This document shows, one piece after another, positions 3,557 through 26,250 of a DNA stretch of 36,804 nucleotides. The notes beneath the pieces were generated by a model. It saw only the letters and a list, made by a program, of their open reading frames with translations, searched no databases and was not told the origin of the DNA. Source of the DNA: Candidatus Aminicenantota bacterium. GTDB taxonomy: Bacteria; Acidobacteriota; Aminicenantia; UBA2199. The stretch is from positions 1-36,804 of the forward strand of contig JAGLSW010000870.1 of NCBI GenBank assembly GCA_023135565.1, given 5' to 3'. How positions within the stretch are numbered: position 1 is the first letter of the stretch; each line of letters begins with the position of its first letter. The position numbers and the translations under genes are program-made.

Positions 3557-3650
3557 CATTACATGGTGGTAATGAACAAAATGTTTTACATAATTCGAGT
3601 TCACACCGCTTTGCAGATCTCTTTTCAAGCTTTGTTTTAAAAAAAAGTTA
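3557..3650 (+). ncRNA. Conserved structured leader motif, copy 1
   Basis: One of three related ~90-nt segments (others at 23795 and 26158). Shared features in order are ATGGYGGTAMT, an A-rich stretch with a TTTTAC-like core, a partner strand (here CACACC; CCGCC in the other copies) able to pair with the first G-rich strand, and a second hairpin TTTTCAAG...TTTTAAAA ending in A-rich sequence and AAAGTTA. In this copy both stems are weakened. It starts about at the +1 of a consensus promoter, so it would form the extreme 5' end of the mRNA. Function is unknown. Confidence 0.5.
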
Positions 3651-3792
3651 CCTTTTTTCAGCCGCTAATTTAAAAATACGATTCCAAATGAGGACGGCGC
3701 CCTGGCCAGGAAACTTAAAAATTGCCGGGAAAACCGGCGAAAATGAAACTCCCCGGTTTCCAGCCCCCCCCCAGGAATTTATAGGAACTAAA

Positions 3793-6700
3793 ATGAACAC
3801 AACAGCAGCTAAACCAAACAATCAGAAATTATACTTTCTCGTTTTTGTGCTTTTCTTTTTCTCCGGTATTTCGAGCCTGATCTACCAGATCGTCTGGACC
3901 CGGGAATTAGTGCTCATCTTCGGCAATACTATGCTGGCTACCAGCACCGTGTTGAGCGCCTTTATGGCCGGCCTGGCCGCCGGTAGTTTCGTTTTCGGGA
4001 AATTCGCCGACAAACGGCCTCGCAATTTGATCCGCGTCTACGCCCTGCTGGAAGCGGGCATCGGCGTCTTCGCTTTATTATTCCCGCTGCTGCTGGCTGT
4101 GATCGGCCCGCTCTATACCGGCCTTTACCGGTCTGTAGAAGGCAATATGCTGACGTTGAATTTGGTCCGTTTTGCCGTATGTTTCGTATTGATCGTGGTG
4201 CCTACGTTCCTGATGGGCGCTACCCTGCCGGTGCTGTTGAAACGTTTCGTTAACAGTACGGCCACTATCGGCAAACGCATGGGCCTGTTTTACGGTCTGA
4301 ATACCATCGGGGCAGTGGTGGGCAGCTTGCTGTGCGGTTTCTTGTTCCTGAGACTTTTCGGGATGCGCCTTTCCACCCTGTTAGCCGTAGTAATCAACTT
4401 AGGCGTGGCCCTGCTGGCCTGGGCCATAGGCAAAGATGACAGCGCCCCGGAACCGGCTGTGGCTGCGCCGGAAAAGAAAAAAAACAGCGCCGGGGAATAC
4501 AGCCCCTTAACCGTGAAATTAGTCTTTTTAGGCATCGGCATTTCCGGTTTCTGCGCCCTGGCCTACGAGGTCTTCTGGACGCGCATGTTGAACCTCTTTT
4601 TCCACAATACGGTTTATTCTTTTACTACCATACTGGCTACTTTCCTTACCGGCATCGCCATCGGCAGCTTGATCTATGCGCGCTTCCTATCTAAAATAAC
4701 CAACCGTATAATGCTTTTTATTGTGGTGGAAATCGGCATCGGCGTTTTTGCTTATGCCACGCCTTATATTTTTAACCTGTTGTACGAACCGCTTTTTTCC
4801 AAACCGGCTGAAACCCTGACCGTTTTAAAAGCCGGTGTGATTATGATCGGCCCCACTATCCTGATGGGCATTGCCCTGCCGCTGGCGGTACAGATTTGCC
4901 AGCGCGGACCGCGGCGCGAAGGCGACAGCGTGGGCCGGGTATATGCCATTAATACCGTGGGTTCGATATTCGGCGCTTTTGCCGCCGGTTTTATCCTGGT
5001 TCCCGAATTAGGCATTCACAAAAGCGTCATCGTGGTGGTCTGCTTGAATATTATCGCCGGGCTGTTAGTGCTGTTCTCTTATGCACGCCTGCGACTGCAA
5101 ATGCGTTTGGCAGCCGGTTTTGTGTTTGCCTGTATCCTGGTGATTATGTTCGTGATCGCCCCGGGCGACCTGTTCCGCGACCTGTACCGCAAAAAAATAT
5201 CCCACGCCAACTTAGAGTACTATAAAGAAGGTAAAATAGCCAATGTGGTGGTCTATGATTTCTACAAGAACGGCTATAAAGACCTGTACCTGAACGGCAT
5301 CGAAGAAGCATCCAGCCGGTTGTGGCATGTGCAGTTGTTTAAAATGTTGGGGGCGCTGCCCGCCGTGGTGCATCCGCAGCCCGACGACGCTTTGATGATC
5401 GCTTTCGGCGCCGGTATGTCGGCCGGCACTACCGTGGACTTAGTGGACTATTTCGAGTGCGCGGAACTGAACCCGGACATCTACGAGGAAGCGGAAATTT
5501 TCAAAAAAGAGAACCGGGACGTAATCAACAACCCGAAATTGAACATGGTGTTTAATGATGGCCGCAACCACCTGCTGCTGACGCCTAAGAAATACAGCCT
5601 TATTATTTCCGATGCCACCAACCCTTTGACTTTCGATTCCTGGACTTTGTATACTCAAGAGTTCTACCAACTGTGCAAAGAAAAACTCAAACCCGGCGGT
5701 GTTTTTTGTCAATGGGTGCCCATACCTTTGCCCAGCGACGCTCTGAAAGTGGTATTAAAAACTTTTAAATCGGTTTTTCCGCACACCAGTTTTTGGAGTA
5801 TTTACGGTCACTCGCAGTGCCTGATGCTGGCCACCCCGGAGCGGCTGCGGTTGAATTACCGGCAGTTGGCAAAAGAATTGCCCGCTGTTTTAGAAACCAC
5901 GGACTTGAAAGATTACGGTGTGGAAACAGTGGAAAAATTCCTCAGTTTTTTTATGTTGGGTGAAGATGAATTAGACGAATACTTGAAAAATTTCGATAAG
6001 ATCAACAGCGATGACCTGCCGGACGCCCAATTCCACAGCGGCATCGACCGGGAAGGGATCGACACCGCCTTAGAGCTTTTAAAGCACCAGCGAACTATCC
6101 TGCCCTACCTGACCGGTTTGGGCGCCGAGAAAGACCGTGTCCAATCGGTTTTAGAAAACTATGTGTCTATTTCCCGGTTCCTGAACATCGGGTTTTTAAG
6201 AGAGAGTAATTTCGAGTTGAGTAAAGCTTATGCTTTTGCCTCCGAAGTGGGTCTGGCGGATGATAAAAACATATTGTGCATGTTGAATTACGGGCCCAAA
6301 AGGAAAGAATATTTCCTGGACCGGGCCGCCCGTTTTCCCGATGACGCCAACGCCCATAATAGTTTAGGATACATTGCCTGGAAAGAAGGCGATTACCCGA
6401 AAGCCATAAAAGAATTTAAACGGGCTATCGAGCTGAAACCCGATTTTGCCCGGGCTTATGTGAACTTAGGGCAGGCTTTAAGCGACGCCTCTAAGTTCGA
6501 CGAAGCGGTGGAGATTTTCCTGGAAGTGAAAGAGCTGAACCCCACCATGAATGTATTAACCTTAGTGCGCGGCGAATTAGGTCTTATGCAAACGATGCGG
6601 AAACTCATGTACCAGGACGACACGGCGCTTTTTGGAAAACTGGCCAAGTCCTATATGGACAGGGGCGAAATATCTTCTGCCATCGAAGCTCTCAAGCTGG

Positions 6701-7512
6701 CTTTAGTACGCAGCCCCAATGACCCGAATGTTCTTGCTTCCCTGGCTGCTGTTTATGAGACTCTCGATATTTTGAACGGTTCTCTTTATTATTATGGAAA
6801 AATGGCGCAAGCAGTCCCGGGGGACGTAAATGTAAAAAATAAGATCAAAGAATTGAAAGCGGTGCGCAGCGATGCCGATGCCCGGGCGGACTGGATAATG
6901 AGCCGGGTTAAAGCGCCGGCGAGGACTTCCGATCACCCGGAAGGGTGCGGTACAGCGTCCAGGAAATGGAACGAGTACGAATTTGACGGCAAGATTAGCA
7001 AAACGAATTTGAGGGCCGCCGCCGCTGAGTTTGAGAAAGTCATCGCAGAGGATGTAAAGCACATGCATGCCTATGCCGATGCCGCCACCATTTATGAGCA
7101 TTTGGGAGAGTACGTCAATGCCGCGCAATTATTGCGTTTCGGTCTGGCAGTATCTCCCGGTAACCGGGTGGCGCTCAACAGTTTGAAACGCCTGGAGCTG
7201 CTCGATCAACTGCATACTACGAAGCCCAGCGGTGAGAAATTGGTAGAAATGTACAACAACATCGGGGTTTTGTATTGGCAGAACGGGGAAATAGAGTCGG
7301 CCATCGTTTATTTTAAAAAGGCGCTCAAAGAGAACCCCGGTCATGCTATGTCCTGGGCGAATTTGGGAGCCAATTATATTCAATCCGGGCGTTTCCGGGA
7401 AGCCCTCCGGGCTTTGGAAGCGGCAATAAAATTGAACCCGGCCATAGGTTTTGCCGACCAGATCAAGAAGCAGATGCAGGATCTCCAGAATATCATAGCC
7501 GGGATAAAATAA
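3793..7512 (+). CDS. Fused MFS-like membrane domain / spermidine-synthase-like domain / TPR protein
   Basis: A 1239-residue protein from ATG 3793, chosen because TAGGAAC precedes it and the protein then opens directly with a membrane segment; an upstream in-frame ATG at 3688 would add 35 unlikely residues. Residues ~10-460 hold many transmembrane helices in two homologous halves, each containing a Y(Q/E)(I/V)(V/F)WTR motif (near 31-36 and 257-262). Residues ~480-690 form a spermidine-synthase-like Rossmann domain with a SAM/dcSAM-type FGAGMSAGT motif near 537 and ISDATNP where aminopropyltransferases carry their acidic catalytic segment. The rest (~840-1239) is TPR repeats, including DDANAHNSLGYIAWKEGDYP. 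Such fused MFS/SpeE-like proteins are widespread in environmental bacteria; the true reaction is not established, so polyamine synthesis should not be assumed. Confidence 0.88.
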   Translation: MNTTAAKPNNQKLYFLVFVLFFFSGISSLIYQIVWTRELVLIFGNTMLATSTVLSAFMAGLAAGSFVFGKFADKRPRNLIRVYALLEAGIGVFALLFPLLLAVIGPLYTGLYRSVEGNMLTLNLVRFAVCFVLIVVPTFLMGATLPVLLKRFVNSTATIGKRMGLFYGLNTIGAVVGSLLCGFLFLRLFGMRLSTLLAVVINLGVALLAWAIGKDDSAPEPAVAAPEKKKNSAGEYSPLTVKLVFLGIGISGFCALAYEVFWTRMLNLFFHNTVYSFTTILATFLTGIAIGSLIYARFLSKITNRIMLFIVVEIGIGVFAYATPYIFNLLYEPLFSKPAETLTVLKAGVIMIGPTILMGIALPLAVQICQRGPRREGDSVGRVYAINTVGSIFGAFAAGFILVPELGIHKSVIVVVCLNIIAGLLVLFSYARLRLQMRLAAGFVFACILVIMFVIAPGDLFRDLYRKKISHANLEYYKEGKIANVVVYDFYKNGYKDLYLNGIEEASSRLWHVQLFKMLGALPAVVHPQPDDALMIAFGAGMSAGTTVDLVDYFECAELNPDIYEEAEIFKKENRDVINNPKLNMVFNDGRNHLLLTPKKYSLIISDATNPLTFDSWTLYTQEFYQLCKEKLKPGGVFCQWVPIPLPSDALKVVLKTFKSVFPHTSFWSIYGHSQCLMLATPERLRLNYRQLAKELPAVLETTDLKDYGVETVEKFLSFFMLGEDELDEYLKNFDKINSDDLPDAQFHSGIDREGIDTALELLKHQRTILPYLTGLGAEKDRVQSVLENYVSISRFLNIGFLRESNFELSKAYAFASEVGLADDKNILCMLNYGPKRKEYFLDRAARFPDDANAHNSLGYIAWKEGDYPKAIKEFKRAIELKPDFARAYVNLGQALSDASKFDEAVEIFLEVKELNPTMNVLTLVRGELGLMQTMRKLMYQDDTALFGKLAKSYMDRGEISSAIEALKLALVRSPNDPNVLASLAAVYETLDILNGSLYYYGKMAQAVPGDVNVKNKIKELKAVRSDADARADWIMSRVKAPARTSDHPEGCGTASRKWNEYEFDGKISKTNLRAAAAEFEKVIAEDVKHMHAYADAATIYEHLGEYVNAAQLLRFGLAVSPGNRVALNSLKRLELLDQLHTTKPSGEKLVEMYNNIGVLYWQNGEIESAIVYFKKALKENPGHAMSWANLGANYIQSGRFREALRALEAAIKLNPAIGFADQIKKQMQDLQNIIAGIK

Positions 7513-7576
7513 AGCCAAAAAGAGTCATTCGTGTTTCTTGAAATCTCATGAAAAATTTACAACTGATGTAAGGAAG

Positions 7577-7918
7577 CTATTCTTCTCTTTTTTTTCCCCG
7601 GTTTTTTACATCCCGATGGGAAGCCCGGGACACGATAGAGAAATCGGTCATCAAGTGATAAAGTCTTATCTGTTTCCCGGTTTTACTCTCGATGTGGATA
7701 GATTCATAAAGAAAGGGTTTGATGTTTGATCTGATTTCCTGTTCGGTCTTTGTTTGAGGAAATTCTCCGGCACAAAGTTCATTGATACGATTTATATTCT
7801 TTTCTATATCTACCGGTTTTACCAGGAATGCGATCATGCCGTTAACGCCGGAATAGGTGGGATATTTACTGGAAACGAATCTCAGTATGCCTTCGAGGAT
7901 ATTTTTTATGTCGCTCAT
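7577..7918 (-). CDS. Small hypothetical protein coupled to the type IIG enzyme
   Basis: A 113-residue protein starting MSDIKNILEGILRF. Its ATG (7916-7918) overlaps the TGA of the restriction-modification gene (7915-7917) as ATGA, the classic arrangement for translational coupling, and this decides the start over longer in-frame options. The N-terminal half looks alpha-helical with a hydrophobic patch (GVNGMIAFLV), the middle is acidic, and the C-terminus is strongly basic (NRGKKREE). There is no signal peptide or transmembrane segment. I recognise no family. The coupling suggests it is made in proportion to the methyltransferase and acts with it, for example as a partner subunit, inhibitor or regulator; this is inference. 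Confidence 0.6.
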   Translation of the reverse strand: MSDIKNILEGILRFVSSKYPTYSGVNGMIAFLVKPVDIEKNINRINELCAGEFPQTKTEQEIRSNIKPFLYESIHIESKTGKQIRLYHLMTDFSIVSRASHRDVKNRGKKREE

Positions 7919-10900
7919 GTAGATTGGGCGTCCTTTTTCAAAATAGCATCGACAAATTCCAGCAGATCGATCCTGGCAGTCGCCGGATGCCAACTTTTGT
8001 ACTCATTGGGTTTTATTACGTAAAACGAATCCGCTTCGAAACCTTTAATATCTTTTTGGATAAAGATATCCTTTGTGATTTTTTCCAGGGAAACACTCTT
8101 ACCCAGGAGTTCTATGACCCGGGAAATTTCAGCGGGGATAGGGGGTTCCTCTATGGGCGCTTCGGGAACTTCGGCCACTATTTTAAAATTCATGCCGGTG
8201 AAATATGAGGCGCGATAGATTTCGACTTTAAAATATTCATCAGGTCCTTTGTACCAATCCCGGAAATAATCTACAAAAACCCGGGCATACTTTTCTAACT
8301 GGCCGCTATCGGGAGAGCGCAGCGGCGCCGGTTTGTTTTTGAATAACGGTATCGATATGTTAATAGCATAATCGATCAAATCTTTTTCCATTTCCGACAG
8401 CGCATAAAGTTCATTCACTATGCGGTTGATTTCCGCTAATTCTTCCCCGGCCAGGTTACCGGTTTCACTGTCTAAGTTTTCTTTAGGGGGCAGGGAGCTA
8501 TTTGCGTGAGCTTCACCCTCCCACAAATGCCTTTGTTCCCGGTTTAGCTGTTCAAATTTCTGCGTTATTTTTACAAAATTCTCATCCAGTTTATCGACAT
8601 AAATTTCATTTAAATCAACCAGGGGTATGTTGTCAAATTCCCTTTTTAAAACTTTGCCCCGGTCTACGCCCCATTCCACGGAATTCATAAACAAAAAATA
8701 GGCGGTTAGATCGGAAGATAGCAAAGCCCCGATGGCCTTTAATAATTTTTTCTGCCCATTTTTCCCGGCTATTCCATAAACCACGTTGGAGAAGGCACAG
8801 GGAAAATCCAAAAAAGTCAATATTGGCCGATCCTTCCCGATACCTTGTTTGATTATTAAGTGAGGCGCTTTATAGGTTTCAACTATTCCAACATCCTCAA
8901 ATAATAAGTCGGGATATTTATCTCGAACTCTTTTCAAATCGTAATTGTTGATAAAAGATGAAACGGATTCCGGCGGTAAAAACATTAGGTCAGCGATATT
9001 TTCTCTCGATTTGTTTTTATTTGCCCTTTTTAAACCGGCCCCGAATTGCAGATCGTTATCCCGGAGAAAAGTATTGAATTTTTTGTGTGAAAGAATCAAT
9101 CTCTTTAAAAAATGATAATCAAGAGAATTTCCATATAAAAGGGGTTTCCACAACCAATCAAATTCCCGGAGTATGTCCTGATCGATAATTTTTATATTGC
9201 TCTTCTCGATCACTAAGCTTCTAAATAATCTGAAATACAGGTTTGGCAGCAGCGAGATATGCTTTATTTCGTTTTTAGGACTGCGGCCTGTTTGATAAAA
9301 TATTACAGCACCGGGGCATATGGAGCTGGTAAAAACCAACCGCCCGACAGGTGAAAAATTAAAAACTTCATTTATCTCAAAATTCTTTAGAAAATAATTC
9401 CTGAAATGTACAGCATTTGCATTATAAAGAATTTTACTTGTGACGATTAAAGCTATCCCGGTTTTCCCCTTTCCGGTGAAGTCCCTGACGCGGAGCATAA
9501 AACTTTGGGCAACCTGGAAATCACTGATGATAATATTTTCTTTTTTGCACTTTTCGATGAAGTCTTTATTTTCTTTGGACTTAATGCTGCCCCAGGGTGG
9601 ATTACCGATTATGAAATCGAATTGCTTATCCTTTATAAAATCGAAAATGGGATTCCGCCAATCTAAAAAATCTACCTGGAAAAAGTTTAGCCCGTTTCCC
9701 GCGGCAGGTTTATCTTTCCTGTATTTCAAATAAGGGAATTTATAGTTAGCGATGTCCTTAGGTTCTTTATAATCCAGCAGGGTGATGTACAAAGAGAACA
9801 CAGCTATGTCGATGGCGTCTTCATCTTTATCTATACCATATATATTATCTATAAGTAAGCGTTCTAATTCCCGGGCCGTTAGGTTGCCGTTTTTTTGTTT
9901 TTTCCCCTTCGCCACGATTTGGCGGAAAGCCTCAACCAGGAATATCCCTGAACCGCAAGCCGGATCCAATACCCGGCAGCGGCTCGAACCGGATTCGTTC
10001 AAGTGTTTATTGACTGTTTTTTCAAGGGTATAGTCAACCAGGAAGGGAGGAGTATAAAATGCCTTATGCTTGACTTGTTTATCTTTGCCGATAAACCGTT
10101 CATAAATATTGCTGATCAACTCAACCGGGATAATGCTGAAGTCGTAAATGTTAAATAATGACTTCTGGCTTTTTAAGAGATCGCCTCCCTGGAAAAGAAG
10201 ATGTAATGTTTTACAGTGATTAGAATCGATGCCGAGCAGGTCGGCTTCGGCCAGTTCAAACAGATCGCCGTTGAAAGCATTTTTCAGGTAGTTGTAAAAA
10301 TCGACCAATCTTTGCGGTTTTTGAATGATGACCGACAAACTTTGCCGGGCAGCATCGACGTCCCTGTTAACTATGAACTCTTCATCTAATTTGACGCCCC
10401 GGTCTACCAGGTATCGTGCAAAAATAAGGAAACCGATTATTTTTTTGGCAATTTTCCCGGGTAATTTTTTCTCTTCCAGTAGAAGGATAGTTTCCTCGAT
10501 GTTTTTTAGCAGGTACCAATCGACGCGGGTGTTATTTTTAAATTTATTTTTGTTGTTTTCCCAATATTTGCCGGACAATAGATTCCACAATGAATATTTA
10601 TCTATTTCACCTGATGAATCGTTAATGTCCAGTTCGTCCAGGATTTGCAAACAGCTTTTATTATCTTTGTTCAACTTGAGAGCATTAAAAACGGTGATTG
10701 TCGTATCATCTATAACAAAGGCTAAAGGAGCCCGGTTAAAATTCCATATCTGCCGCTGGATTAATTTTTCTTTTTCTTTCCCCGGGGCGTCGAAAAACAA
10801 AACGAAAGGTTCATCGTTAATACAGAAAAAAGCTGTTGGGGCTATTTTTTCCAGGCTTTCCCGTGTTCGTTGGGGTAATCCCAAATCCCGCCACTTTTTT

Positions 10901-10983
10901 TCGGCAGTCCGGTACAGGTCTTTATTTTCTAACAGGTTCAACCTTTTCAGCAGGCTATTCAAACTCATTTTCATATTATACAT
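7915..10983 (-). CDS. Type IIG-like restriction-modification enzyme (Eco57I-class N6-adenine methyltransferase)
   Basis: About 1022 residues from ATG 10983. That start has a weak GGAC ribosome site; ATGs at 11016, 10974 and 10968 and a GTG at 11064 are alternatives. The N-terminal ~110 residues (APTAFFCINDEPFVLFFD then QIWNFNRAPLAFVI) resemble the nuclease-like head of type IIG enzymes, though I cannot assign all PD-(D/E)xK residues. The central domain has AFYTPPFLVDYTL (308-320), SAM motif I DPACGSGIF (340-348) and catalytic motif IV NPPW (461-464), defining a gamma-class N6-adenine methyltransferase. The C-terminal third, with ACGxx-free variable sequence and NSVEWGVDRGKVLKREFDNIPLVDL, fits a target-recognition region. 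It is expected to methylate and cleave a specific site. It starts from its own promoter, facing away from the M14 peptidase, and is coupled to the 113-residue gene. Confidence 0.85.
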   Translation of the reverse strand: MYNMKMSLNSLLKRLNLLENKDLYRTAEKKWRDLGLPQRTRESLEKIAPTAFFCINDEPFVLFFDAPGKEKEKLIQRQIWNFNRAPLAFVIDDTTITVFNALKLNKDNKSCLQILDELDINDSSGEIDKYSLWNLLSGKYWENNKNKFKNNTRVDWYLLKNIEETILLLEEKKLPGKIAKKIIGFLIFARYLVDRGVKLDEEFIVNRDVDAARQSLSVIIQKPQRLVDFYNYLKNAFNGDLFELAEADLLGIDSNHCKTLHLLFQGGDLLKSQKSLFNIYDFSIIPVELISNIYERFIGKDKQVKHKAFYTPPFLVDYTLEKTVNKHLNESGSSRCRVLDPACGSGIFLVEAFRQIVAKGKKQKNGNLTARELERLLIDNIYGIDKDEDAIDIAVFSLYITLLDYKEPKDIANYKFPYLKYRKDKPAAGNGLNFFQVDFLDWRNPIFDFIKDKQFDFIIGNPPWGSIKSKENKDFIEKCKKENIIISDFQVAQSFMLRVRDFTGKGKTGIALIVTSKILYNANAVHFRNYFLKNFEINEVFNFSPVGRLVFTSSICPGAVIFYQTGRSPKNEIKHISLLPNLYFRLFRSLVIEKSNIKIIDQDILREFDWLWKPLLYGNSLDYHFLKRLILSHKKFNTFLRDNDLQFGAGLKRANKNKSRENIADLMFLPPESVSSFINNYDLKRVRDKYPDLLFEDVGIVETYKAPHLIIKQGIGKDRPILTFLDFPCAFSNVVYGIAGKNGQKKLLKAIGALLSSDLTAYFLFMNSVEWGVDRGKVLKREFDNIPLVDLNEIYVDKLDENFVKITQKFEQLNREQRHLWEGEAHANSSLPPKENLDSETGNLAGEELAEINRIVNELYALSEMEKDLIDYAINISIPLFKNKPAPLRSPDSGQLEKYARVFVDYFRDWYKGPDEYFKVEIYRASYFTGMNFKIVAEVPEAPIEEPPIPAEISRVIELLGKSVSLEKITKDIFIQKDIKGFEADSFYVIKPNEYKSWHPATARIDLLEFVDAILKKDAQST

Positions 10984-11031
10984 TTTAATAAGTCCGAAAT
11001 CAAACCGCCTCGACATGTTCGCACCATTTAT

Positions 11032-11049
11032 GCAGTTGTTCACAACTGC
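11032..11049. promoter_or_regulatory. Perfect 18-bp palindrome between the R-M promoter and start codon
   Basis: GCAGTTGTTCACAACTGC has two exact 8-bp arms (GCAGTTGT/ACAACTGC) around a 2-nt centre. It lies about 50 nt downstream of the predicted minus-strand -10 box and 16-50 nt upstream of the candidate ATG starts. It could be an operator for a dimeric repressor (C-protein-like control of restriction-modification genes is a known theme) or a short mRNA hairpin near the start. No controller gene is visible in the window. Confidence 0.5.
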
Positions 11050-11100
11050 GCGGCGTTTCTCCACGCAGGCGGTTTTTTAGCAGGTCTTAAAACAAACACG

Positions 11101-11129: not shown

Positions 11130-11203
11130 ATAACGGCATACCTACTAAATAGAAATCCCGGGGCGGGCTGCCGGTGTGAAAATATAAAAAATAATTTTAA
11201 CAG

Positions 11204-11319: not shown

Positions 11320-11395
11320 AATTTGCCTTCGGCGAGCAGGGGGCGCTTTTTGAGAAAACTGCCCCCTGCACCCCCGCAAAAACTTTTGTTAATAA
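11320..11395. repeat. Intergenic repeat module with a 9-bp GC hairpin (inverted copy)
   Basis: GCAGGGGGC (11336-11344) pairs perfectly with GCCCCCTGC (11361-11369), followed by ACCCCCGCAAAAACTTTTG. The same module in the opposite orientation lies at 14272-14330 (AAAAGTTTTGTGGGGGTGC then an AGGGGGT...ACCCCCT hairpin and GCCGGAGGCAAA). Here it forms part of the peptidase mRNA leader. Confidence 0.65.
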
Positions 11396-14020: not shown

Positions 14021-14330
14021 GGGCTGCCGGTCGAGACACAGGATAGCCGATAGTCTCCACTATTGCCGATACAGCTATCACAGCCAATCGTTTTTAGGCC
14101 CCGGAACGCGGCGCAGGGAACCTATTAGGGGTGCGGCGCACCCACCCTATAAAAGCTGTTATCATCGCTTTTCTTGAATCATTGATAATTGTTCATTGAA
14201 CATCGATCATTGAAAAGGCTTCTCCAGCCCATGAGGGGTGCTTTTCAGGGTAGAAAAGCGTATCGCTTAATAAAAGTTTTGTGGGGGTGCAGGGGGTGGT
14301 TTTTCAAAAGAACCCCCTGCCCGCCGGAGG
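13999..14330. repeat. Intergenic modular repeat cluster B
   Basis: The module GCGGCGCAGGGA(G/A)CCTATTAGGGG occurs twice (about 14001 and 14108); the first copy provides the stop codon of the peptidase gene. Next come short ATTGA-rich units around 14176-14214, then GAAAAGCGTATCGCTTAATAAAAGTTTTG (14253 on, similar to the end of the window at 36781), then an AGGGGGT/ACCCCCT hairpin that is an inverted copy of the 11336 module. No gene is seen. Confidence 0.65.
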
Positions 14331-14331
14331 C

Positions 14332-14376
14332 AAAAAAAAAGGCTGCCCTTCATACGAAGGACAGCCTTTTTTATTT
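14332..14376. terminator. Bidirectional rho-independent terminator
   Basis: GGCTGCCCTTC (14341-14351), loop ATAC, and GAAGGACAGCC (14356-14366) form an 11-bp stem with one mismatch. It is flanked by nine A (14332-14340) and a run of T (14367-14372). It fits termination of the minus-strand papain-like protease gene (stop at 14400) and of readthrough from the left on the plus strand. Confidence 0.85.
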
Positions 14377-17484: not shown

Positions 17485-17614
17485 ATATCGAAAAGTTAAT
17501 CGATTGTCAATGTTTAAAAGCGCTTCCCTACCGGGGGCAGCGGGTGAGCGCTTTTGATTTTAAATAAATAAAAGTTTGGCCTCCCCGGCAGGGGCCGCCG
17601 GAGGCATTTATTGG
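17485..17614. repeat. Direct repeat copy 1 flanking the truncated AlbA_2-like gene
   Basis: 93 bp (17485-17577) match 18863-18955 with one mismatch, and the next 37 bp (17578-17614, ending in GGAGGCATTTATTGG) match 19017-19053. This copy lacks the 61 bp present in copy 2 between the two blocks. Internal modules include AAAAGCGCTTCCCTACCGGG and GGTGAGCGCTTTTGATTTT, which form an AAAAGCGC...GCGCTTTT inverted pair. Confidence 0.85.
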
Positions 17615-18698: not shown

Positions 18699-18866
18699 CC
18701 TGAGAAATTTCCTGACAGAATCTTCATCTATCTCGTCTGTTTTAAAATTCCCGGTAATACCATCCCAATTCGCACCGCTGGTGAAGTGCGTCCCGATAGT
18801 TCTCGGACAACCTGTTGCATTAACACATTTTCCTATATTCTTGCCTGTCCCCTTTTTTAACCATAT
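18699..18866 (-). pseudogene. In-frame upstream remnant of the AlbA_2-like gene, cut by repeat copy 2
   Basis: Reading the same frame upstream of ATG 18698 gives family-typical sequence with no start codon, beginning IWLKKGTGKNIGKCVNATG and continuing through GTHFTSGANWDG to DEIDEDSVRKFL. WLKKG is the conserved motif that in full-length members follows the AlbA_2 domain. Coding similarity stops at about 18863, exactly where the 93-bp repeat copy 2 begins, and a stop codon follows at 18885-18887. The N-terminal ~130 residues usual in the family are therefore gone. Confidence 0.65.
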
Positions 18867-19053
18867 CGAAAAGTTAATCGATTGTCAATGTTCAAAAGCG
18901 CTTCCCTACCGGGGGCAGCGGGTGAGCGCTTTTGATTTTAAATAAATAAAAGTTTTGTTCAAACTTTTTTGAAGGTGCGGTATGCCGCTGGCCCCCAACG
19001 ACAATTCAATGGGGGAGGCCTCCCCGGCAGGGGCCGCCGGAGGCATTTATTGG
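18863..19053. repeat. Direct repeat copy 2 (full length)
   Basis: 191 bp. The first 93 bp match copy 1 at 17485 with one change, and the last 37 bp match 17578-17614. The 61-bp middle (TTTGAAGGTGCGGTATGCCG then GGCCCCCAACGACAATTCAATGGGGG) is absent from copy 1 but is found again at about 23636-23690 with few changes. It joins the truncated AlbA_2-like gene on its left. Positions 19054-19172 hold only AT-rich leader sequence and the ribosome site of the next gene. Confidence 0.85.
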
Positions 19054-19172
19054 AATGTCAAAAAAAACTGTTTTTTTTGCAAGATTTTAGCATACCGGTT
19101 GTTAACATATTTGCGGGATAAATCCGTACTCATTGAATGCGGGCCTCGTCCGTTAAAGGAGCAAAATAAAAC

Positions 19173-21335
19173 ATGAAGAAAATTTTACCTCTTACTTTAT
19201 TCCTTTTGACTATCGGAAGCGTTCTTTACCCCGCCGCCGTCCATTTGCAGGCGGTAAAAATAAACACAGGGCCCAAAATAGACGGGCTGCTGAACGATGC
19301 GGTCTGGCAAGAAGCCCTGCCTTTTTCTAATTTCAAAATGATCGATCCCGATGTGGGCCAAAAACCCAGCGAAAAAACAGAACTGCGCGTCCTTTACGAT
19401 GAGAAAAATCTCTATATCGGCGTTTTTTGTTTCACCTCGGACCCGGCACAAATCACCGTCACCAACCTGAAACACGACCAGGGCGAAAGAGAACGGGGCA
19501 ACGACTTAGTGCGGGTGCTGCTGGACCCTTTTCAGGATAAACGGAACGCTTATGTTTTTTTTGTCACCGCGGGGGGCGCGCGCACCGACGGCCTGGCCTC
19601 GGGAGAACACATGAGCACCAACTGGGACGGCATCTGGAACGCCAAAAGCAAAAAAGGAAAAAAAGGCTGGTCAACGGAAATTAAAATCCCCTTTAAAACG
19701 ATAAATTTTAAACCGGGCTTAAGAGCCTGGGGATTCAATGTGGAAAGATATATCCCCAAAAAAATGGAAACCATCCGCCTCTCCGGCATCAGCCGGGACA
19801 GTTTTTTCTACAACCCGGCGGAGGCCGCCCTTTTAGAAGGCATCCGCGATGTAAAGCAGGGCAATGGACTCACCTTTAAACCCTATACGTCAGCCGGTAC
19901 GACCCGGGATTTCGAGGCGGGCACAGAGCGGGAATGGCCGCTGGAAACCGGTTTCGACCTTTATAAAAACTTCACCCCCAATTTAGTGGGCGTTATTACT
20001 TATAATACCGATTTCGCCGAAACCGAAGTGGATGAGCGGCGCATTAATCTTACCCGTTTTCCCCTCTATTACCCGGAAAAAAGGGCCTTCTTTTTAGAAG
20101 GTTCCGAAATATTCAGTTTCGGCAGCGGCCTGCACCGTTCGTTTATCCCCTTTTTTAGCCGTAATATCGGCCTCTATGACGAAGAGCAAATCCCTGTGCA
20201 CTACGGGGCCAAGGTCTTCGGCAAGATAGGAAACACCAATATCGCCCTGCTGGATGTGAAAACTAGGCCCTTCGAAGAATTAGGCGGACAGAATTTTTTC
20301 GCCGGACGTTTGTCGCAGAATCTTTTCGCGGAAAGCAAAGCGGGGATAATCTTTACCGGCGGCGACCCTTCGGGCGCAGGCGCTAACCATTTAGTGGGCG
20401 CTGATTTCACCTATCAAACTTCGCGGTTTCTTAAGAAACGGAATTTTTCCGTAGGCGGTTGGTGGGTGTATAATTGGAACACCATAGAAACAGGCAAACA
20501 CTACGGTTATGGGTGCCGCATCGACTATCCCAACGACCTGATCGACACTGCGGTATCCTACCGCTATTTCGGGGACGCTTTAGAACCGGGTTTGGCTTAC
20601 CTGCCCCGAAATGGAGTGCATTCCCTGGCGTATATGTTCCAATATAAGCCGCGGCCCCAAAAAGGCTTGATGGGCAAATTGATCCGGCAGCACCGTTTTG
20701 AACTTTTCGCTTTTTTCCATTGGGACCTGTCGGGCAGCCTGGAATCCATGAAAATTTTCACCGCCCCGATCAATTTCCGCACCGAAAGCGGTGACCATTT
20801 CGAGTTCAATATTATCCCGGAAAAGGATGTGCTGATAGAGGAGTTCGAGCTTTCGGACGACTTTGTTCTACCTGTAGGCTCTTATGAATTTACGCGGTAT
20901 GGCATACAGTTTCATTCGGCCTCCCACCGCGCTCTTTCGCTGAACTGCAAATATACTTTCGGTAACTATTATAGTGGCAAATTAAATGAACTCCAGGCCG
21001 GCGTCTCCTTTAAATACAGGGGAAATATCAATGTCGGTTTAGCCGGCGTTTTTATCCGCGGCGACTTTCCCCAGGGCGAATTTAACAAGAACCTTTTCCG
21101 GGTCAAAACGGACTTCTTTTTGAACAGCGATTTGGGTTTGATGAGCTATATCCAATACGACGATGTCAGCAGGGAATTTGGCGCCAATATCCGTCTCCGC
21201 TGGCGTATTTCGCCGGGGAATACCCTTTACTTAGTATACAGCCGGGGCTGGGAGAGAACCTGGGACCCGCAGAGCCGTTTTACTCCCCTTTACGATCGCG
21301 GCGTTTTTAAAATCCAGTTAACCTGGAGACCGTAG
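19173..21335 (+). CDS. DUF5916/CBM9-like outer-membrane protein
   Basis: A 720-residue protein with AAAGGAG before ATG 19173 and a signal peptide (LPLTLFLLTIGSVLYPAAVHL). Residues ~25-220 form a carbohydrate-binding CBM9-like domain with the hallmark start KINTGPKIDGLLNDAVWQEA and LRVLYDEKNLYIGVFC. The remainder matches DUF5916, a predicted beta-barrel-like region rich in alternating aromatic strands (PLYYPEKRAFFLEGSEIFSFG is the signature). It ends in aromatic/basic residues (KIQLTWRP), common for outer-membrane barrels. The ligand is unknown; saccharide binding or surface processing is suggested by the family fold. It is a single gene, and no convincing -35/-10 pair was found. Confidence 0.88.
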   Translation: MKKILPLTLFLLTIGSVLYPAAVHLQAVKINTGPKIDGLLNDAVWQEALPFSNFKMIDPDVGQKPSEKTELRVLYDEKNLYIGVFCFTSDPAQITVTNLKHDQGERERGNDLVRVLLDPFQDKRNAYVFFVTAGGARTDGLASGEHMSTNWDGIWNAKSKKGKKGWSTEIKIPFKTINFKPGLRAWGFNVERYIPKKMETIRLSGISRDSFFYNPAEAALLEGIRDVKQGNGLTFKPYTSAGTTRDFEAGTEREWPLETGFDLYKNFTPNLVGVITYNTDFAETEVDERRINLTRFPLYYPEKRAFFLEGSEIFSFGSGLHRSFIPFFSRNIGLYDEEQIPVHYGAKVFGKIGNTNIALLDVKTRPFEELGGQNFFAGRLSQNLFAESKAGIIFTGGDPSGAGANHLVGADFTYQTSRFLKKRNFSVGGWWVYNWNTIETGKHYGYGCRIDYPNDLIDTAVSYRYFGDALEPGLAYLPRNGVHSLAYMFQYKPRPQKGLMGKLIRQHRFELFAFFHWDLSGSLESMKIFTAPINFRTESGDHFEFNIIPEKDVLIEEFELSDDFVLPVGSYEFTRYGIQFHSASHRALSLNCKYTFGNYYSGKLNELQAGVSFKYRGNINVGLAGVFIRGDFPQGEFNKNLFRVKTDFFLNSDLGLMSYIQYDDVSREFGANIRLRWRISPGNTLYLVYSRGWERTWDPQSRFTPLYDRGVFKIQLTWRP

Positions 21336-21419
21336 ACAGCTTTCGGCCTTCAGCATTCAGCATTGGGCCTTCAGCCTGCAAGTTCAGCCGGGCAAAAAAA
21401 ATAAAAAAAATCGTTGAAC

Positions 21420-21448
21420 TTGAAATTTTTTCATTTTTACATTACAAT
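21420..21448 (+). promoter_or_regulatory. Promoter upstream of the first S74 protein gene
   Basis: TTGAAA (21420-21425), a 17-nt spacer and TACAAT (21443-21448). The sequence after the -10 (AGTAC) matches that after the -10 of the second paralogue's promoter (23752-23780). The leader is about 335 nt and contains hairpins and an S74 tail remnant. Confidence 0.65.
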
Positions 21449-21451
21449 AGT

Positions 21452-21553
21452 ACCGGCATGCAAAAACGCCGGTTCTTTCCGGGATATTCACTGTTGGGTC
21501 AGACAACTTTAACCGGGCTGATTTGCAGGTGAACAGGTAGGTTTTACCCGGAA
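21452..21553 (+). ncRNA. Potential structured leader RNA
   Basis: Just after the predicted start site, ACCGGC (21452-21457) pairs with GCCGGT (21468-21473). TTCCGGG (21477-21483) can pair with CCCGGAA (21547-21553), enclosing a GTTG/CAAC hairpin (21493-21507). AACCGGG (21511-21517) can compete for the same CCCGG partner. This could be a regulatory leader, but I recognise no known riboswitch consensus. Confidence 0.35.
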
Positions 21554-21670
21554 TTTGAAAAATGTGTAACAAAAATTTAATGCCGCTAAAAGACCCGCTG
21601 CTCAGCCCTTTTAGAGAGCCGATTTTTCCCCCGATAAAAAAATCACAAATTTCCCCCCTGGCGGCAGGAT

Positions 21671-21760
21671 ATGGTCAAACAAAAGCAGCAAGTGGTGGAG
21701 AAGCAGCAAAAAACCATCGCGGAACTGCAAAAAAGGATTTCCGAGTTTGAAAAAAAATAA
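21671..21760 (+). pseudogene. C-terminal coiled-coil remnant of an S74-type paralogue
   Basis: A 29-codon frame starting MVKQKQQVVEKQQKTIAELQ and ending RISEFEKK then TAA closely matches the coiled-coil tail of the downstream gene (QQQQKSVQEQQETISELKRR then ISQLEKK). It ends about 30 bp before the start of that gene and lacks the rest of the protein. This indicates a third, deleted copy in a tandem array. Upstream sequence to 21556 shows no further similarity by eye. Confidence 0.7.
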
Positions 21761-21789
21761 AATTTTAAAATTCCATAAGGAGGTAAAAC

Positions 21790-23376
21790 GTGGAAGGTAA
21801 AAAAAGATTTTTTGCAGCAATCGCTGCAGTATTTTTTGTTTTCGGTTTTGTAGTGACAGCAGCAGCAGCGGATAAAACCCGCACTGCCGATGTAAGCATC
21901 GGGTCGTTCGGTATTAACTGGCAGCCCAGGGTAAGCTATGAAAAGATCACCCTTACAGTTGCCTGCCCCGATGGACAGGTTTTTCAAAAAGCTTTTAATA
22001 ACGGTACGCTGCCTTATTTTGCGCTTTCCGACATCGGCGAGAAATCCCCCAACGGCTCTTATACCTATGAACTGCGGGTAACCCCGTATCTGAAGAAGAA
22101 AACGGCCCGTATCGGGGCTGAAACGTTCCCCGGCAGCAAAGCGCCTGCGCACATGAACATTTTAACCCAATCCGGGTACTTTACGGTTAAGGGCGGCAGT
22201 ATCGTCACCCGCGCCGGCGCGGAAGAGGAACCTGAAAAACCCCAGGATATCGTTCACCTCGACGATGTGATCATCGACGGCAGCCTGTGTGTGGGTAATG
22301 ATTGTTACAGTGGACTGGCCTTCGGTTTCGACACCATCGTTTTGATGGAGAACAACCTGCGCATATTTTTCGACGACACCAGCACTATCCAGAATTATCC
22401 CCGCAACGACTGGCGCATCATCTGCAACGACAGCACCGACGGCGGCGGTAATTATTTTGCCGTGCAGGATGCCACGGAAGTATCGAATATCTTTGTACTG
22501 GAAGCCGGAGCGCCCGATAATTCCCTTTACGTGGACAGCCACGGCGACGTGGGCATCAACACCTCGACCCCCTATTATGAGCTGCACATCGTAGATGGGG
22601 ACTCGCCCTGCGTACGTTTAGACCAGGACGGCTCCTATGGTTGGGAACCCCAGAAGTGGGACCTGTGCGGCAATGAAAGCAACTTCTTCATTCGCGACGC
22701 CACCCATGCCTCCAAGCTGCCTTTCAGGATAGAACCCGATGCTCCCACCAACAGTATTTTCATTAAGGCCACCACTGGAAACGTGGGGATAGGCACCGGC
22801 TCACCGGTTTATTCTATGGAATTGGAAAGAACCGGTTCAGATACCATTTTTGCCATCGAGCGCACCGACGGCGCAACCGGGAAAATCGCTGCCGGCACCA
22901 ACGGGGTACAAATCGGTTCCATCTCCACTCACAAAGTCCATTTTGTGGTAAGTGGAGGCACCAAAGTGTTGACCGTGGATATCGATGGCGATGTGGGCAT
23001 CGGCCAGACGGCTCCTTCTTACCTGCTGCATTTAAACGGTGGGGCGTACTGTGACGGCGGCGCCTGGGTGTCCGGTTCCAGTAGGGAATATAAGGAAAAC
23101 ATCGCCGGTCTAACCTTGACCGAAGCTATAGAAACGTTGAACCAACTTGAACCGGTCAAGTTTAATTATAAGCGGAATGCGGATGAAGATTACATCGGTT
23201 TTATTGCCGAGGATGTTCCTGAGTTGGTAGCCACCAAAGATCGTAATGGGATGAGTTCCATGGACGTGGTGGCAGTCCTGACCAAAGTATTGCAGCAGCA
23301 GCAGAAGAGCGTACAGGAGCAGCAGGAGACCATCTCGGAACTTAAAAGAAGAATTTCCCAGCTTGAGAAAAAATAG
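21790..23376 (+). CDS. Secreted protein with C-terminal peptidase S74 intramolecular chaperone
   Basis: 528 residues from a GTG start placed by AAGGAGG 7 nt upstream. It has a signal peptide (RFFAAIAAVFFVFGFVVTAAAA). Residues ~30-140 are a beta-rich domain (DVSIGSFGINWQPRVSY) shared with its downstream paralogue. The middle has tail-fibre-like repeats of the form VGI(G/N)TxxPxYxLxI around 245-260 and 330-345 and again near 400. Residues ~425-528 are a peptidase S74 domain (SSREYKENIAGLTLTEAIE, then VKFNYKRN and IGFIAEDVPELV), ending in a coiled coil. S74 domains trimerise and self-cleave beside a Ser before the RxKxxI motif. No phage genes surround it, so a surface fibre or adhesin is more likely than a tail spike. 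Confidence 0.85.
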   Translation: MEGKKRFFAAIAAVFFVFGFVVTAAAADKTRTADVSIGSFGINWQPRVSYEKITLTVACPDGQVFQKAFNNGTLPYFALSDIGEKSPNGSYTYELRVTPYLKKKTARIGAETFPGSKAPAHMNILTQSGYFTVKGGSIVTRAGAEEEPEKPQDIVHLDDVIIDGSLCVGNDCYSGLAFGFDTIVLMENNLRIFFDDTSTIQNYPRNDWRIICNDSTDGGGNYFAVQDATEVSNIFVLEAGAPDNSLYVDSHGDVGINTSTPYYELHIVDGDSPCVRLDQDGSYGWEPQKWDLCGNESNFFIRDATHASKLPFRIEPDAPTNSIFIKATTGNVGIGTGSPVYSMELERTGSDTIFAIERTDGATGKIAAGTNGVQIGSISTHKVHFVVSGGTKVLTVDIDGDVGIGQTAPSYLLHLNGGAYCDGGAWVSGSSREYKENIAGLTLTEAIETLNQLEPVKFNYKRNADEDYIGFIAEDVPELVATKDRNGMSSMDVVAVLTKVLQQQQKSVQEQQETISELKRRISQLEKK

Positions 23377-23394
23377 TTACTAAATAATTAACAG

Positions 23395-23745
23395 CTTGCG
23401 GTGCAGGAAGCTTACGGGTTTCCCGCACCCTGCCTCCGGCGGCCCTCCGGGGGGTCGCTTTTAAAAAAGCTCCGCAAAACTTCTTATTATTTAAAATCAA
23501 AAGAGTCACCTGCCGCGAAGCGGCTTATAGGCTGGGTGCGCCGTTCCCCCTGCGGCGAAGCAGCTTAATGGCTCCCCACGCTGTGGGGCCGGGGAAGGGT
23601 GCTTCTCGCTTTTAAATAAACAAAAGTTTTGTTCAAACTTTTTTGAAGGTTCGGTATGCCGAGGCCCCCAACCTCAATTTAATGGGGGCGGCCCCCGGCA
23701 GGGCCGCCGGAGGCTTTTTCCCCCAGGAGGGGCGAAAAAAAATTA
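23395..23745. repeat. Intergenic modular repeat cluster D
   Basis: About 350 bp with no gene, built from the dispersed modules: TGCCTCCGGCGGCCCTCCGG (as at 3249), CCCTGCGGCGAAGCAGCTTA with GGCTCCCCACGCTGTGGGG (as at 3404-3441), then AAATAAACAAAAGTTTTG, TTTGAAGGTTCGGTATGCCG and GGGGGCGGCCCCCGGCAGGG (as at 18941-19050). Changes in one arm of the ACGCTGTGGGG palindrome break pairing, so at least some modules are decaying. Confidence 0.7.
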
Positions 23746-23751
23746 TTTTTT

Positions 23752-23780
23752 TTGAAATTTCCAGCTTTTTGATGTAAAAT
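23752..23780 (+). promoter_or_regulatory. Promoter for the second S74 protein gene
   Basis: TTGAAA (23752-23757), a 17-nt spacer and TAAAAT (23775-23780). Predicted start is near 23787, a few bases before conserved leader motif copy 2. Confidence 0.7.
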
Positions 23781-23794
23781 AGTACATGCCGTTT

Positions 23795-23880
23795 CATGGC
23801 GGTACTAACCAAAATATTTTACGTAATTCAAGCTGCCGCCGTTAAGTGGTTTTTTTCAAGTTTAGTCTTGAAAAAAAGTT
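23795..23880 (+). ncRNA. Conserved structured leader motif, copy 2
   Basis: The best-formed copy. GGCGGTA (from 23799) can pair with TGCCGCC (23834-23840) through G-C pairs plus a wobble. A second, perfect 9-bp hairpin is TTTTTCAAG/CTTGAAAAA with a 6-nt loop (about 23852-23875). It is followed by AAAGTTATTGC and, about 50 nt later, the GGAGG of the 23948 gene. The position at the transcript 5' end matches copy 1. Confidence 0.55.
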
Positions 23881-23947
23881 ATTGCATTGCTTTTAAATTT
23901 GAAAAAAATTCTTCGGTTGGAGAATAAAATATAAGGAGGTAAGATTC

Positions 23948-25480
23948 ATGATTGGGAAAAAGAGTCTTATAGCATTAGCAGCGTTATTTTTTGCGCTATG
24001 TTTTACCGTTACGGCAGCCGGTTATAACAAGGTTGCCGATGTAAGCGTGGGTTCCTTCGGTATCCACTGGCAGCCCAAAGTAGGCTTCGAGAAAATAGTT
24101 TTGACCGTCTCATGTCCCGACGGTTCGGTTTTCTCAAAAACTTTTTCCGGCGGCGGCGCACCCTATCTCGGCCTATCCGACAACAAGGGGAATTTCGGCG
24201 ATGGCCTTTATACTTACGAACTGCGGGTCAGCCCTTACACTGTGAAGAAGACCCGGAAAGCCGGGGACAGGTCGCTGCCTCAAAAAACCATGCTTCAGTC
24301 CGGTTTTTTTACGGTTAAAGGCGGCAGTATCGTCACCACCGGCGGCGGTGAAGACGGTTTAGATCCTACCAACGATATACTCCACTACGATGACGTCATT
24401 ATCACCGGCAGCCTGTGCGTAGGTTTCGACTGCGCCAACGGGGAATCTTTCGGTTTCGATACCATTATTCTAAAAGAACACAACCTGCGTATTTATTTCA
24501 ACGACACCAGCTATACAGCTTCTTATCCCACCAACAACTGGCGTATTACCATAAACGATTCTACCAATGGCGGCGCTTCCTATTTTTCTGTCGATGATGT
24601 GGATGACGGCACCTCGATATTTAAGATCGAAGCCGGAGCTCCCAGCAACTCTCTTTATGTAGAAGACTATGGCCGGATCGGTTTAGGAACTTCTACACCG
24701 GTGGTGGAACTGCATATCAAAGACAGCGACACACCGACTGTGCGCTTAGAGCAGGACAGCTCGGGCGGATGGACCGCCCAAACCTGGGATGTAGCCGGTA
24801 ACGAATCCAATTTCTTTATCAGGGATGCCACCAACGGGTCCAAGCTGCCTTTCAGGATCCAACCCAGCACTCCTTCCAGCACATTGTGCCTCAAATCGGA
24901 CGGCAAAATAGGTATCGGCACCTGGTCGCCGGCATATGCCCTTGAATTAGAGACCACAGGGTCAGACGCCATTTTCGCTATCGACCGAACTGACGGCGCA
25001 ACCGGAAAAGTCGCCGCAGGTACTAATGGAGTACAAATAGGATCTATCTCCAACGACAAAGTACATTTTGTAGTAAATAACGGCACCAAAGTGTTGACTG
25101 TGGACACCGACAGCCAGGTGGGTATCGGCCAGACGGCCCCTTCTTACCTGCTGCACTTAGGCGGCGGCGCTTATTCCGACGGCAGCGACTGGTACCCCTC
25201 ATGCAGCAGGGAACTCAAAGAAAACATCGAGAACCTCACCCTTGAAGAAGCGATAGCAGCGGTAAAAGATCTCAACCCGGTAAAGTACAATTATAAAAAG
25301 AACAAAGAAGAAGCGAGAGTGGGTTTCATCGCTGAAGATGTGCCGGAACTGGTAGCCATAAACAGCAGGAAAAACCTGAGCACTATGGACATCCTGGCTG
25401 TTTTGACCAGGGTTGTTAAAGCACAGCAGGAGACCATAGAGAAACTCAACCGGCGGCTTGCCGAGGTTGAAAACAAATAA
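23948..25480 (+). CDS. Secreted S74-domain protein, paralogue of the upstream gene
   Basis: 510 residues with AAGGAGG 8 nt before ATG 23948 and a signal peptide (LIALAALFFALCFTVTAAG). The architecture matches the 21790 gene: shared N-terminal beta domain (DVSVGSFGIHWQPKVGFEKI), central fibre repeats (VGIGQTAPSYLLHL is identical in both), and a C-terminal S74 domain (CSRELKENIENLTLEEAIAA, VGFIAEDVPELVA) with a shorter coiled coil (QQETIEKLNRRLAEVENK). The most conserved stretch is the region before S74; the middle is the most variable. The gene has its own promoter and leader. The pair likely arose by tandem duplication and may form alternative surface fibres. Confidence 0.85.
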   Translation: MIGKKSLIALAALFFALCFTVTAAGYNKVADVSVGSFGIHWQPKVGFEKIVLTVSCPDGSVFSKTFSGGGAPYLGLSDNKGNFGDGLYTYELRVSPYTVKKTRKAGDRSLPQKTMLQSGFFTVKGGSIVTTGGGEDGLDPTNDILHYDDVIITGSLCVGFDCANGESFGFDTIILKEHNLRIYFNDTSYTASYPTNNWRITINDSTNGGASYFSVDDVDDGTSIFKIEAGAPSNSLYVEDYGRIGLGTSTPVVELHIKDSDTPTVRLEQDSSGGWTAQTWDVAGNESNFFIRDATNGSKLPFRIQPSTPSSTLCLKSDGKIGIGTWSPAYALELETTGSDAIFAIDRTDGATGKVAAGTNGVQIGSISNDKVHFVVNNGTKVLTVDTDSQVGIGQTAPSYLLHLGGGAYSDGSDWYPSCSRELKENIENLTLEEAIAAVKDLNPVKYNYKKNKEEARVGFIAEDVPELVAINSRKNLSTMDILAVLTRVVKAQQETIEKLNRRLAEVENK

Positions 25481-25499
25481 CTATCCGGAAAATATAACC

Positions 25500-25685
25500 C
25501 TTAATTAACAGAGGCGCTTTTTCCAGGCTCCTTAGGGTGGGGGAGCCGACCCCCGCCCAGGCCCCTCATAGGGTGCGGACGCCGGCCGCTTTGCAAAAAC
25601 AAACTTTCCGGTCAACCCGGTCAGAGATTTGATTCCTCAGCCCCTTATAGGTTCCCCGTGCCACGGGGCCGCACCCCCGGGGAAT
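25500..25685. repeat. Intergenic repeat cluster E
   Basis: Between two convergent genes. It contains a strong hairpin GGGTGGGGG (25535-25543)/CCCCCGCCC (25550-25558) with no T-run, then CCCCTCATAGGGTGCGGACGCC and CCCCTTATAGGTTCCCCGTG followed by a CCGTGCCACGG palindrome, all in the style of the other clusters. The hairpin may end transcription from either side. No gene is seen. Confidence 0.55.
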
Positions 25686-25694
25686 TTTTACTTT

Positions 25695-26150
25695 TTATTT
25701 TGATTTTTTGGAGCCGGTGTTCAAGCCTACGATACTAACCACATTACCATAACGCATCATGGCCATGCCATTCTGCCTCAAAATAAGGTCTAAAGCCTGA
25801 TCCCAGGGCACTTGCTTCAATGAACAGGTAACCCTGCCGTTCACATCAGGGTCGATAACGATATTAAACTTGTAGTTCCGGGCAAAAATAAGAAGCACAT
25901 TCTTCAAATCCGCATCCTTAAAATAAAAATCTCCCGGTTTCCCGGTGTATTTTTTTGCAGCTCCCCGGATACTCCTGCCTGCTTGTGTTTTTACCGGCTC
26001 TTTTTTTTCGGTCTTCTCCTGCTTTTCCTGTTTCTCTTGTTTTCCCCGGCAGCCGGGGCTTCCGGCAGCTTGCTCTGCGGCGGGCAAACTTACCCACAGC
26101 AGCAGTGCCGTTATCGCGCAGCACATCGCTATTACTCTTTTTTTTCTCAT
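25695..26150 (-). CDS. Standalone STN (secretin N-terminal short) domain protein
   Basis: 151 residues with a signal peptide (MRKKRVIAMCCAITALLLWV); the start has no clear ribosome site, and ATG 26126 is possible. A Lys/Glu/Gln-rich low-complexity linker (KQEKQEKQEKTEKKEPVK) joins it to one STN domain (~72-143) of the PilQ type: DFYFKDADLKNVLLIFARNY, NIVIDPDVNGRVTCSL, VPWDQALDLILRQNGM. In PilQ and other secretins or TonB receptors this domain precedes a channel; here the protein stops just after it. It may be a periplasmic accessory to a secretin elsewhere, or a broken secretin. The short 3' gap is repeat sequence, with no visible secretin remnant. Confidence 0.8.
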   Translation of the reverse strand: MRKKRVIAMCCAITALLLWVSLPAAEQAAGSPGCRGKQEKQEKQEKTEKKEPVKTQAGRSIRGAAKKYTGKPGDFYFKDADLKNVLLIFARNYKFNIVIDPDVNGRVTCSLKQVPWDQALDLILRQNGMAMMRYGNVVSIVGLNTGSKKSK

Positions 26151-26157
26151 TTTATGC

Positions 26158-26250
26158 CATTACATGGCGGTAATGAGCAACATGTTATTCACTTTTCAGG
26201 TTACCGCCGCCAGGTGGTTTTTTTTCAAGCTTAGCCTTGAAGAAACATTA
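26158..26250 (+). ncRNA. Conserved structured leader motif, copy 3
   Basis: ATGGCGGTAATGAGCAACAT begins a segment matching copies 1 and 2. GGCGGTAA (26166-26173) pairs perfectly with TTACCGCC (26201-26208), and TTCAAG/CTTGAA forms the second hairpin (about 26224-26241). No good promoter lies directly upstream. It is divergent from the STN gene, whose 5' untranslated region would be its complement, and lies about 300 bp before the polysaccharide cluster. Confidence 0.5.

Follow-up and report, generated by a model that had tools for sequence, protein, structure and literature searches.

The locus and its three copies of a structured element

The window, i.e., the whole stretch of 36,804 nucleotides of a Candidatus Aminicenantota genome analyzed here, contains three homologous copies of an element of about 95 nt, all on the forward strand. 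These had been claimed by an earlier sequence-only reading and were borne out by alignment, profile HMM and covariance model: copy 1 at 3552-3650 (HMM 70 bits; covariance model 82.7 bits), copy 2 at 23785-23881 (81 and 90.5 bits) and copy 3 at 26153-26250 (92 and 103 bits). Zero-mismatch matches to the core CATGGYGGTAMTRA within the window were confined to these three copies, and an Rfam covariance-model scan of the window returned no match at the gathering score.

Copy 1 sits in the 5' leader of a plus-strand gene at 3793-7512 (start from the gene caller), for which Pfam indicates an MFS/spermidine-synthase-like/TPR protein, and it begins at the -10 hexamer of a predicted sigma70-like promoter (TTGACT-17-TATAAT, 3524-3552, plus strand). 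Similarly, copy 2 sits in the 5' leader of a plus-strand gene for a Peptidase_S74 (endosialidase chaperone) protein by Pfam (23948-25480), 5 nt behind the promoter-like sequence TTGAAA-17-TAAAAT (23752-23780, plus strand). Both copies start 0-5 nt past a sigma70-like -10 hexamer, in agreement with the good sigma70 promoters noted for them before. Copy 3, forward on the plus strand, lies in reverse orientation relative to the minus-strand gene at 25695-26150, which encodes a secretin/STN N0-domain protein (Pfam PF21305 and PF07660). It is located inside the leader of that gene: one end is 2 nt ahead of the ATG, and its 3' end is abutted by a promoter-like sequence reading towards the gene (TTGAAT-17-TATAAT, 26247-26275, minus strand). 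Copy 3, noted before as lying upstream of the polysaccharide cluster, is not part of the leader of that cluster, since a separate promoter-like sequence of the operon, TTGAATTTTTCTCCTGTTTGTGCTATATACT, follows copy 3 near 26365. This sequence is conserved at the orthologous operon of the congener G001, where the intervening element and the secretin-like gene are both absent. Together, the secretin/STN-domain gene and copy 3 amount to an insertion of about 0.8 kb (25480-26330) relative to the congener locus.

Further interspersed repeat families are present in the window at 3249-3383, 11322-11392, 14263-14334, 17536-17577, 18914-19045, 23431-23551 and 23601-23691, each with approximately 7-21 similar stretches among the studied loci of the same genome. 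Parts of some of them have counterparts of 90-95% identity in the congener, whereas genes are only about 70-75% identical. The genome thus seems to be unusually rich in small repeats.

Structure of the repeat

Alignment of the copies gave the consensus TATGCCATTACATGGCGGTAATGAACAACATGTTGTACATATTTCAAGTTCCCACCGTTAGGTGGCTTTTTTTTCAAGCTTAGTCTTGAAAAAACACTATA, in which no terminal inverted repeat was found. The hairpin H1 (GCCAT-TAC-ATGGC) is located at 3555-3567, 23788-23800 and 26156-26168 in copies 1, 2 and 3, respectively, and the hairpin H3 (poly-T CAAG...CTTG poly-A) at about 3622-3645 and 23850-23876 in copies 1 and 2 and at 26220-26245 in copy 3, all on the plus strand. Between H1 and H3 lie the conserved core AACATGTTnnACATATT and the small local hairpin H2 (CCACC-GTTA-GGTGG), which is followed by a T-run and scanned as terminator-like on the plus strand in copies 2 (23835-23850) and 3 (26203-26218). 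A possible element-internal promoter in reverse orientation (TTGAAA...TTATTA) appeared weak by eye.

In an alignment of 46 copies, relatives included, standard pairs filled 89.4% of the cells of H1, H2 and H3, with weaker support for H2 (81.7%). Changes on both sides of the hairpins numbered 34 as compared to 9.8 in shuffles and far lower values in slid controls, counts that are inflated by relatedness among the copies. When the structure was not supplied, RNAalifold recovered H1 and H3 and found compensatory change at 9 of its 10 pairs. The stem of H1, of the general form GCnnT-TAC-AnnGC followed by GGTAA, is swapped among subfamilies (GCCAT/ATGGC, GCACT/AGTGC, GCATT/AATGC, GCGCT/AGCGC), while the TAC loop and the GGTAA tail are constant. 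Even so, each of the three genomes has its own version of H1 and H3, which speaks for a real constraint on these hairpins, be it at the DNA or the RNA level. Covariation, named as a check in the earlier proposal, is present in the two terminal hairpins, and the TTCAAG/CTTGAA hairpin proposed from the window copies is real and covaries. The proposed GGCGGTA/CCGCC helix, by contrast, is not a feature of the family, as two of its pairs form in just 9 and 4 of the 46 copies.

Tandem H1 modules were seen in all three element-bearing genomes. Modules of the form GCnnTTACAnnGC-GGTAA with differing stems within one element occur, e.g., at the loci L120, L173, L032 and L152.

Distribution, siting at predicted promoters and empty orthologous sites

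The genome of origin (7.6 Mb in 1261 contigs) is a fragmented assembly, 87% complete and 4% contaminated. With copy 2 as query, tens of further copies were found in it. With up to 3 mismatches allowed, a 29-base core pattern had 87 matches, split 50 to 37 between the strands, and its reversed control had none; the covariance model scored 121 candidates, all of which passed. Thus, instead of the three copies first noticed, the genome carries at least 121. The same model detected 27 copies in G001, the congener, and 33 in the family member G021; the other 31 genomes of the family, three of them congeners of G021, gave zero matches. Among 84,980 species genomes, from which the record of the genome of origin was possibly left out, a pattern of H1 plus core matched only the two Candidatus Aminicenantes MAGs CS4-C025 and RS_8_31. 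A search of IMG/VR for a link to viruses gave no match. The nearest neighbor in sequence was found within the same genome for 118 of 120 copies. Both orientations are present, and 97 of the 99 copies with gene context are intergenic. Accordingly, the element is short, non-coding, high-copy, intergenic and present in both orientations, as small interspersed repeats are. A literature search on repeats of Aminicenantes, of incomplete coverage, revealed no title or abstract describing such a family, and we regard the family as previously undescribed.

The regions studied for context were picked mainly by match to one end of the element. Gene starts were called with a simple caller trained on this sequence, and promoters were predicted with an E. 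coli-like matrix. Of the 88 element ends that face a gene start no more than 300 nt away, 50 (57%) have a sigma70-like -10 hexamer beginning at most 25 nt from the element, as compared to 15.1% of random gene-facing positions in element-free intergenic DNA (p ~2e-19) and to 9 of 57 ends not facing a gene (Fisher p 8e-7). The enrichment was seen in both orientations, i.e., for 36 of 53 reverse and 14 of 35 forward copies, and, given the -10, the -35 hexamers at the right spacing scored higher than shuffles, with 1.90 against -0.38 for reverse copies (standard error 0.34) and 2.22 against -0.37 for forward copies (standard error 0.51). The relatives, although with few copies, pointed in the same direction: predicted promoters were found near gene-facing versus other ends in 6/19 versus 0/12 cases in G021 and in 5/11 versus 3/9 in G001, or 11/30 versus 3/21 when pooled. 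Convergent gaps were depleted: they hold 5 of the 88 copies with both neighboring genes called but make up 21% of the intergenic sequence that is free of the element (p 5e-5). The placement at predicted transcript 5' ends foreseen from the window copies is therefore systematic, and since the repeat starts close behind a sigma70-like -10 in either orientation, it would become the 5' UTR of the transcript. Most copies near start codons are in reverse orientation, many of them 11-19 nt from the start codon. The space between the native -10 and the ribosome-binding site is short in G001, so that an insertion there places the element near both, which accounts for the spacing of the reverse copies.

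Orthologous gene starts in the congener were compared for twelve genes whose start in the genome of origin is no more than about 110 nt away from a copy and for which G001 orthologs were located. Eleven of the twelve G001 starts have no element upstream; in the remaining case, an arginase-like gene, it lies about 276 nt upstream and thus in a different place. The promoter was recognizably the same at filled and empty sites for the rfbC-, PycA-, DnaJ-, Acs- and GNAT-like genes. Among eleven G021 orthologs inspected, no convincing copy was present. Together with the copy-3 locus, which is empty in the congener as well, these filled and empty sites are those of lineage-specific insertion. One TAT-like triplet is seen at the empty site of the GNAT and rfbC loci, where the filled site has TAT on each side. 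Moreover, the trinucleotide before GCC was repeated at the other end in 65 of 84 copies as compared to 45.0 +/- 3.5 in permutations, the recurring end triplets (TRT) being mostly TAT with TAT or TGT with TGT. This fits a possible 3-bp target duplication, albeit the same signal would arise if the ends were fixed within subfamilies; no target-site duplication longer than 3 bp was seen.

Two observations on partial copies may be added. A truncated copy before a methylmalonyl-CoA mutase gene (L118:2976-3090) is devoid of H3 and flanked by a 17-bp direct duplication AAAGTAGAGGAAAAAAA. An apparent retroposition-like bias of partial copies towards one end was dropped because the core-pattern search had selected for that end; copies found incidentally in flanks were balanced.

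Origin of the repeat and comparison with known systems

The clustering by genome, the occurrence in both orientations, the unrelated neighboring genes and the absence at orthologous starts identify a lineage-specific mobile-type repeat rather than a conserved leader of surface genes. Probably, it is a non-autonomous, structured interspersed repeat of about 95 bp (MITE/REP-like) which was amplified separately in a few lineages of Aminicenantes and is sited at predicted promoters. The sequence-only reading had named a mobile-repeat origin as the alternative to its main proposal, and the patchy, genome-specific distribution now favors it. Conversely, the role in cis-regulation or antitermination of surface or polysaccharide genes is not supported, given congener orthologs devoid of the element and functionally mixed neighbors, which include methylmalonyl-CoA mutase and uracil-DNA glycosylase by Pfam and DnaJ-, PurB-, DAHP-synthase- and phosphofructokinase-like genes by sequence.

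From the distribution of copies, known for a single genome per species and showing neither excision nor polymorphism, we infer mobility and propose that the repeat would be mobilized in trans by some enzyme and would insert in either orientation at TAT or TGT sites, possibly duplicating 3 bp. Insertion or survival may be favored in and just behind the -10 region of promoters; the promoter would be kept, and the mRNA would begin with the ~95 nt of the element. H2 and the T-run resemble an intrinsic terminator when the repeat is in forward orientation, and this would account for the predominance of reversed copies near start codons; given this terminator-like arrangement in copies 2 and 3, the orientation bias was probably shaped by selection. 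Tentatively, the repeat might be a miniature element that targets active promoters, inserting at TAT in or behind the -10, possibly via the single-stranded bubble of the open complex, and leaving promoters undestroyed. Such targeting would explain both the promoter preference in either orientation and the avoidance of convergent gaps. No described example of a promoter-targeted bacterial miniature element was returned by a literature search. Neither an autonomous relative nor a mobilizing enzyme was found among the regions examined, and no insertion sequence sharing the ends of the repeat, as in a classical MITE, was seen in a search of part of the genome.

Several other explanations have to be weighed. 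If the repeat were a selected RNA element of the 5' UTR, one that stabilizes the mRNA or is recognized by an RNA-binding protein or a regulator and that has been kept in, or copied into, many leaders because it favors expression or coordinates a regulon, with mobility being secondary, then the covarying hairpins, the unpaired core conserved across three genomes and the strong placement between promoter and start codon would be accounted for. However, occupation of the same place in both orientations is hard to reconcile with a sequence-specific RNA signal, the genes share no functional theme, and the element is absent from congener orthologs and most of the family, so that we consider this unlikely. 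Random insertion at any AT-rich, TAT-like site, with the link to promoters arising from their AT-richness and from survival, agrees with TRT at both ends and with the T/A-rich flanks; it is rather improbable in view of the 15.1% obtained for random gene-facing intergenic positions against 57%, the lack of enrichment at equally intergenic ends which do not face a gene, and the depletion of convergent gaps, the safest places.

Movement as a REP/REPIN-type repeat, with a Y1 transposase (RAYT/TnpA-REP) that works on single-stranded hairpins, would be in line with the hairpin at each end, the high number of copies, their location between genes, the tandem H1 modules, the absence of a long target duplication and 13 Y1_Tnp matches in the genome of origin, some of them recently duplicated. 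Nevertheless, among the Y1 loci examined, full copies were near a Y1 gene only at C1247, with a fragment at C1193, and Y1_Tnp was found in 32 of 34 family genomes as compared to three with the element; this route has a small probability. As linkage was inconsistent and co-occurrence across the family absent, Y1/RAYT was rejected as a linked mobilizer. The Y1_Tnp (RAYT-like) proteins themselves, of about 310 amino acids, include at least three copies with 86-90% identity (L125, L130, L219), i.e., a recent expansion.

An antitermination leader of the JUMPstart/ops type, acting on surface or polysaccharide operons via an RfaH/LoaP-type NusG paralogue, was suggested by the GGCGGTA core and by the position of copies 1 and 2 in leaders. 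The resemblance holds for the short core match and for nothing beyond it: more than 120 copies lie beside unrelated genes and mostly in reverse, copy 3 precedes the promoter-like sequence of the operon, and the core is inside a hairpin conserved by structure and not by sequence, reading GCACTTACAGTGCGG in G021. The genes that follow the copies are mixed instead of polysaccharide or long operons. The search for a NusG paralogue did reveal a second NusG-family gene, a divergent one at L283 (G000:C1101:1764-2039; 56 bits as compared to 96.5 for NusG), which by its sequence could be an RfaH/LoaP-like paralogue, albeit nothing connects it with the element. We regard this explanation as very improbable.

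On the favored reading, i.e., a mobile-type repeat at promoters, its presence at dozens of predicted transcription starts whose promoters are unharmed would imply that insertion is directed to promoters or that copies in 5' UTRs are strongly retained; either, if true, would be a route to uniform structured leaders across a genome. It also calls for caution, as structured leader motifs that recur in an uncultured genome can prove to be mobile repeats and not riboswitch-like regulators.

In ops/JUMPstart elements, which act with RfaH, the GGCGGTA string is found in a leader position. The repeat shares both (the latter in copies 1 and 2) but differs from them in being high-copy, present in both orientations and untied to polysaccharide operons. 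REPINs and RAYTs are the nearest mechanistic analogue, although linkage fails here: they have in common with the repeat high-copy intergenic hairpins, genome-specific populations and the lack of a long target duplication (PMC3116915, PMC8266576), to which the Y1 proteins encoded in the same genome may be added, whereas the inconsistent Y1 linkage, the other hairpin layout and the 5'-UTR siting set the repeat apart. Correia elements of Neisseria (CREE/NEMIS) are likewise small and non-autonomous; most of them precede genes, and they end up in transcripts and can contribute promoter sequence. Unlike the repeat, they have terminal inverted repeats, and the promoter of the repeat is in its flank and not inside (PMC2649163, PMC10969869). 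Finally, BOX, RUP and SPRITE of Streptococcus pneumoniae resemble it as structured intergenic repeats of about 100 bp with about 100 copies and no functional theme; module number varies in both, namely boxB in BOX and tandem H1 here, and SPRITE is terminator-like, as are the forward H2 and T-run (PMC3049150). Sequence kinship is not expected. BOX, RUP and SPRITE are over-represented between convergent genes (PMC3049150), i.e., repeats of this type gather where they are least harmful. By contrast, the repeat described here is depleted in convergent gaps and concentrated just past -10 boxes, at the predicted starts of transcripts.
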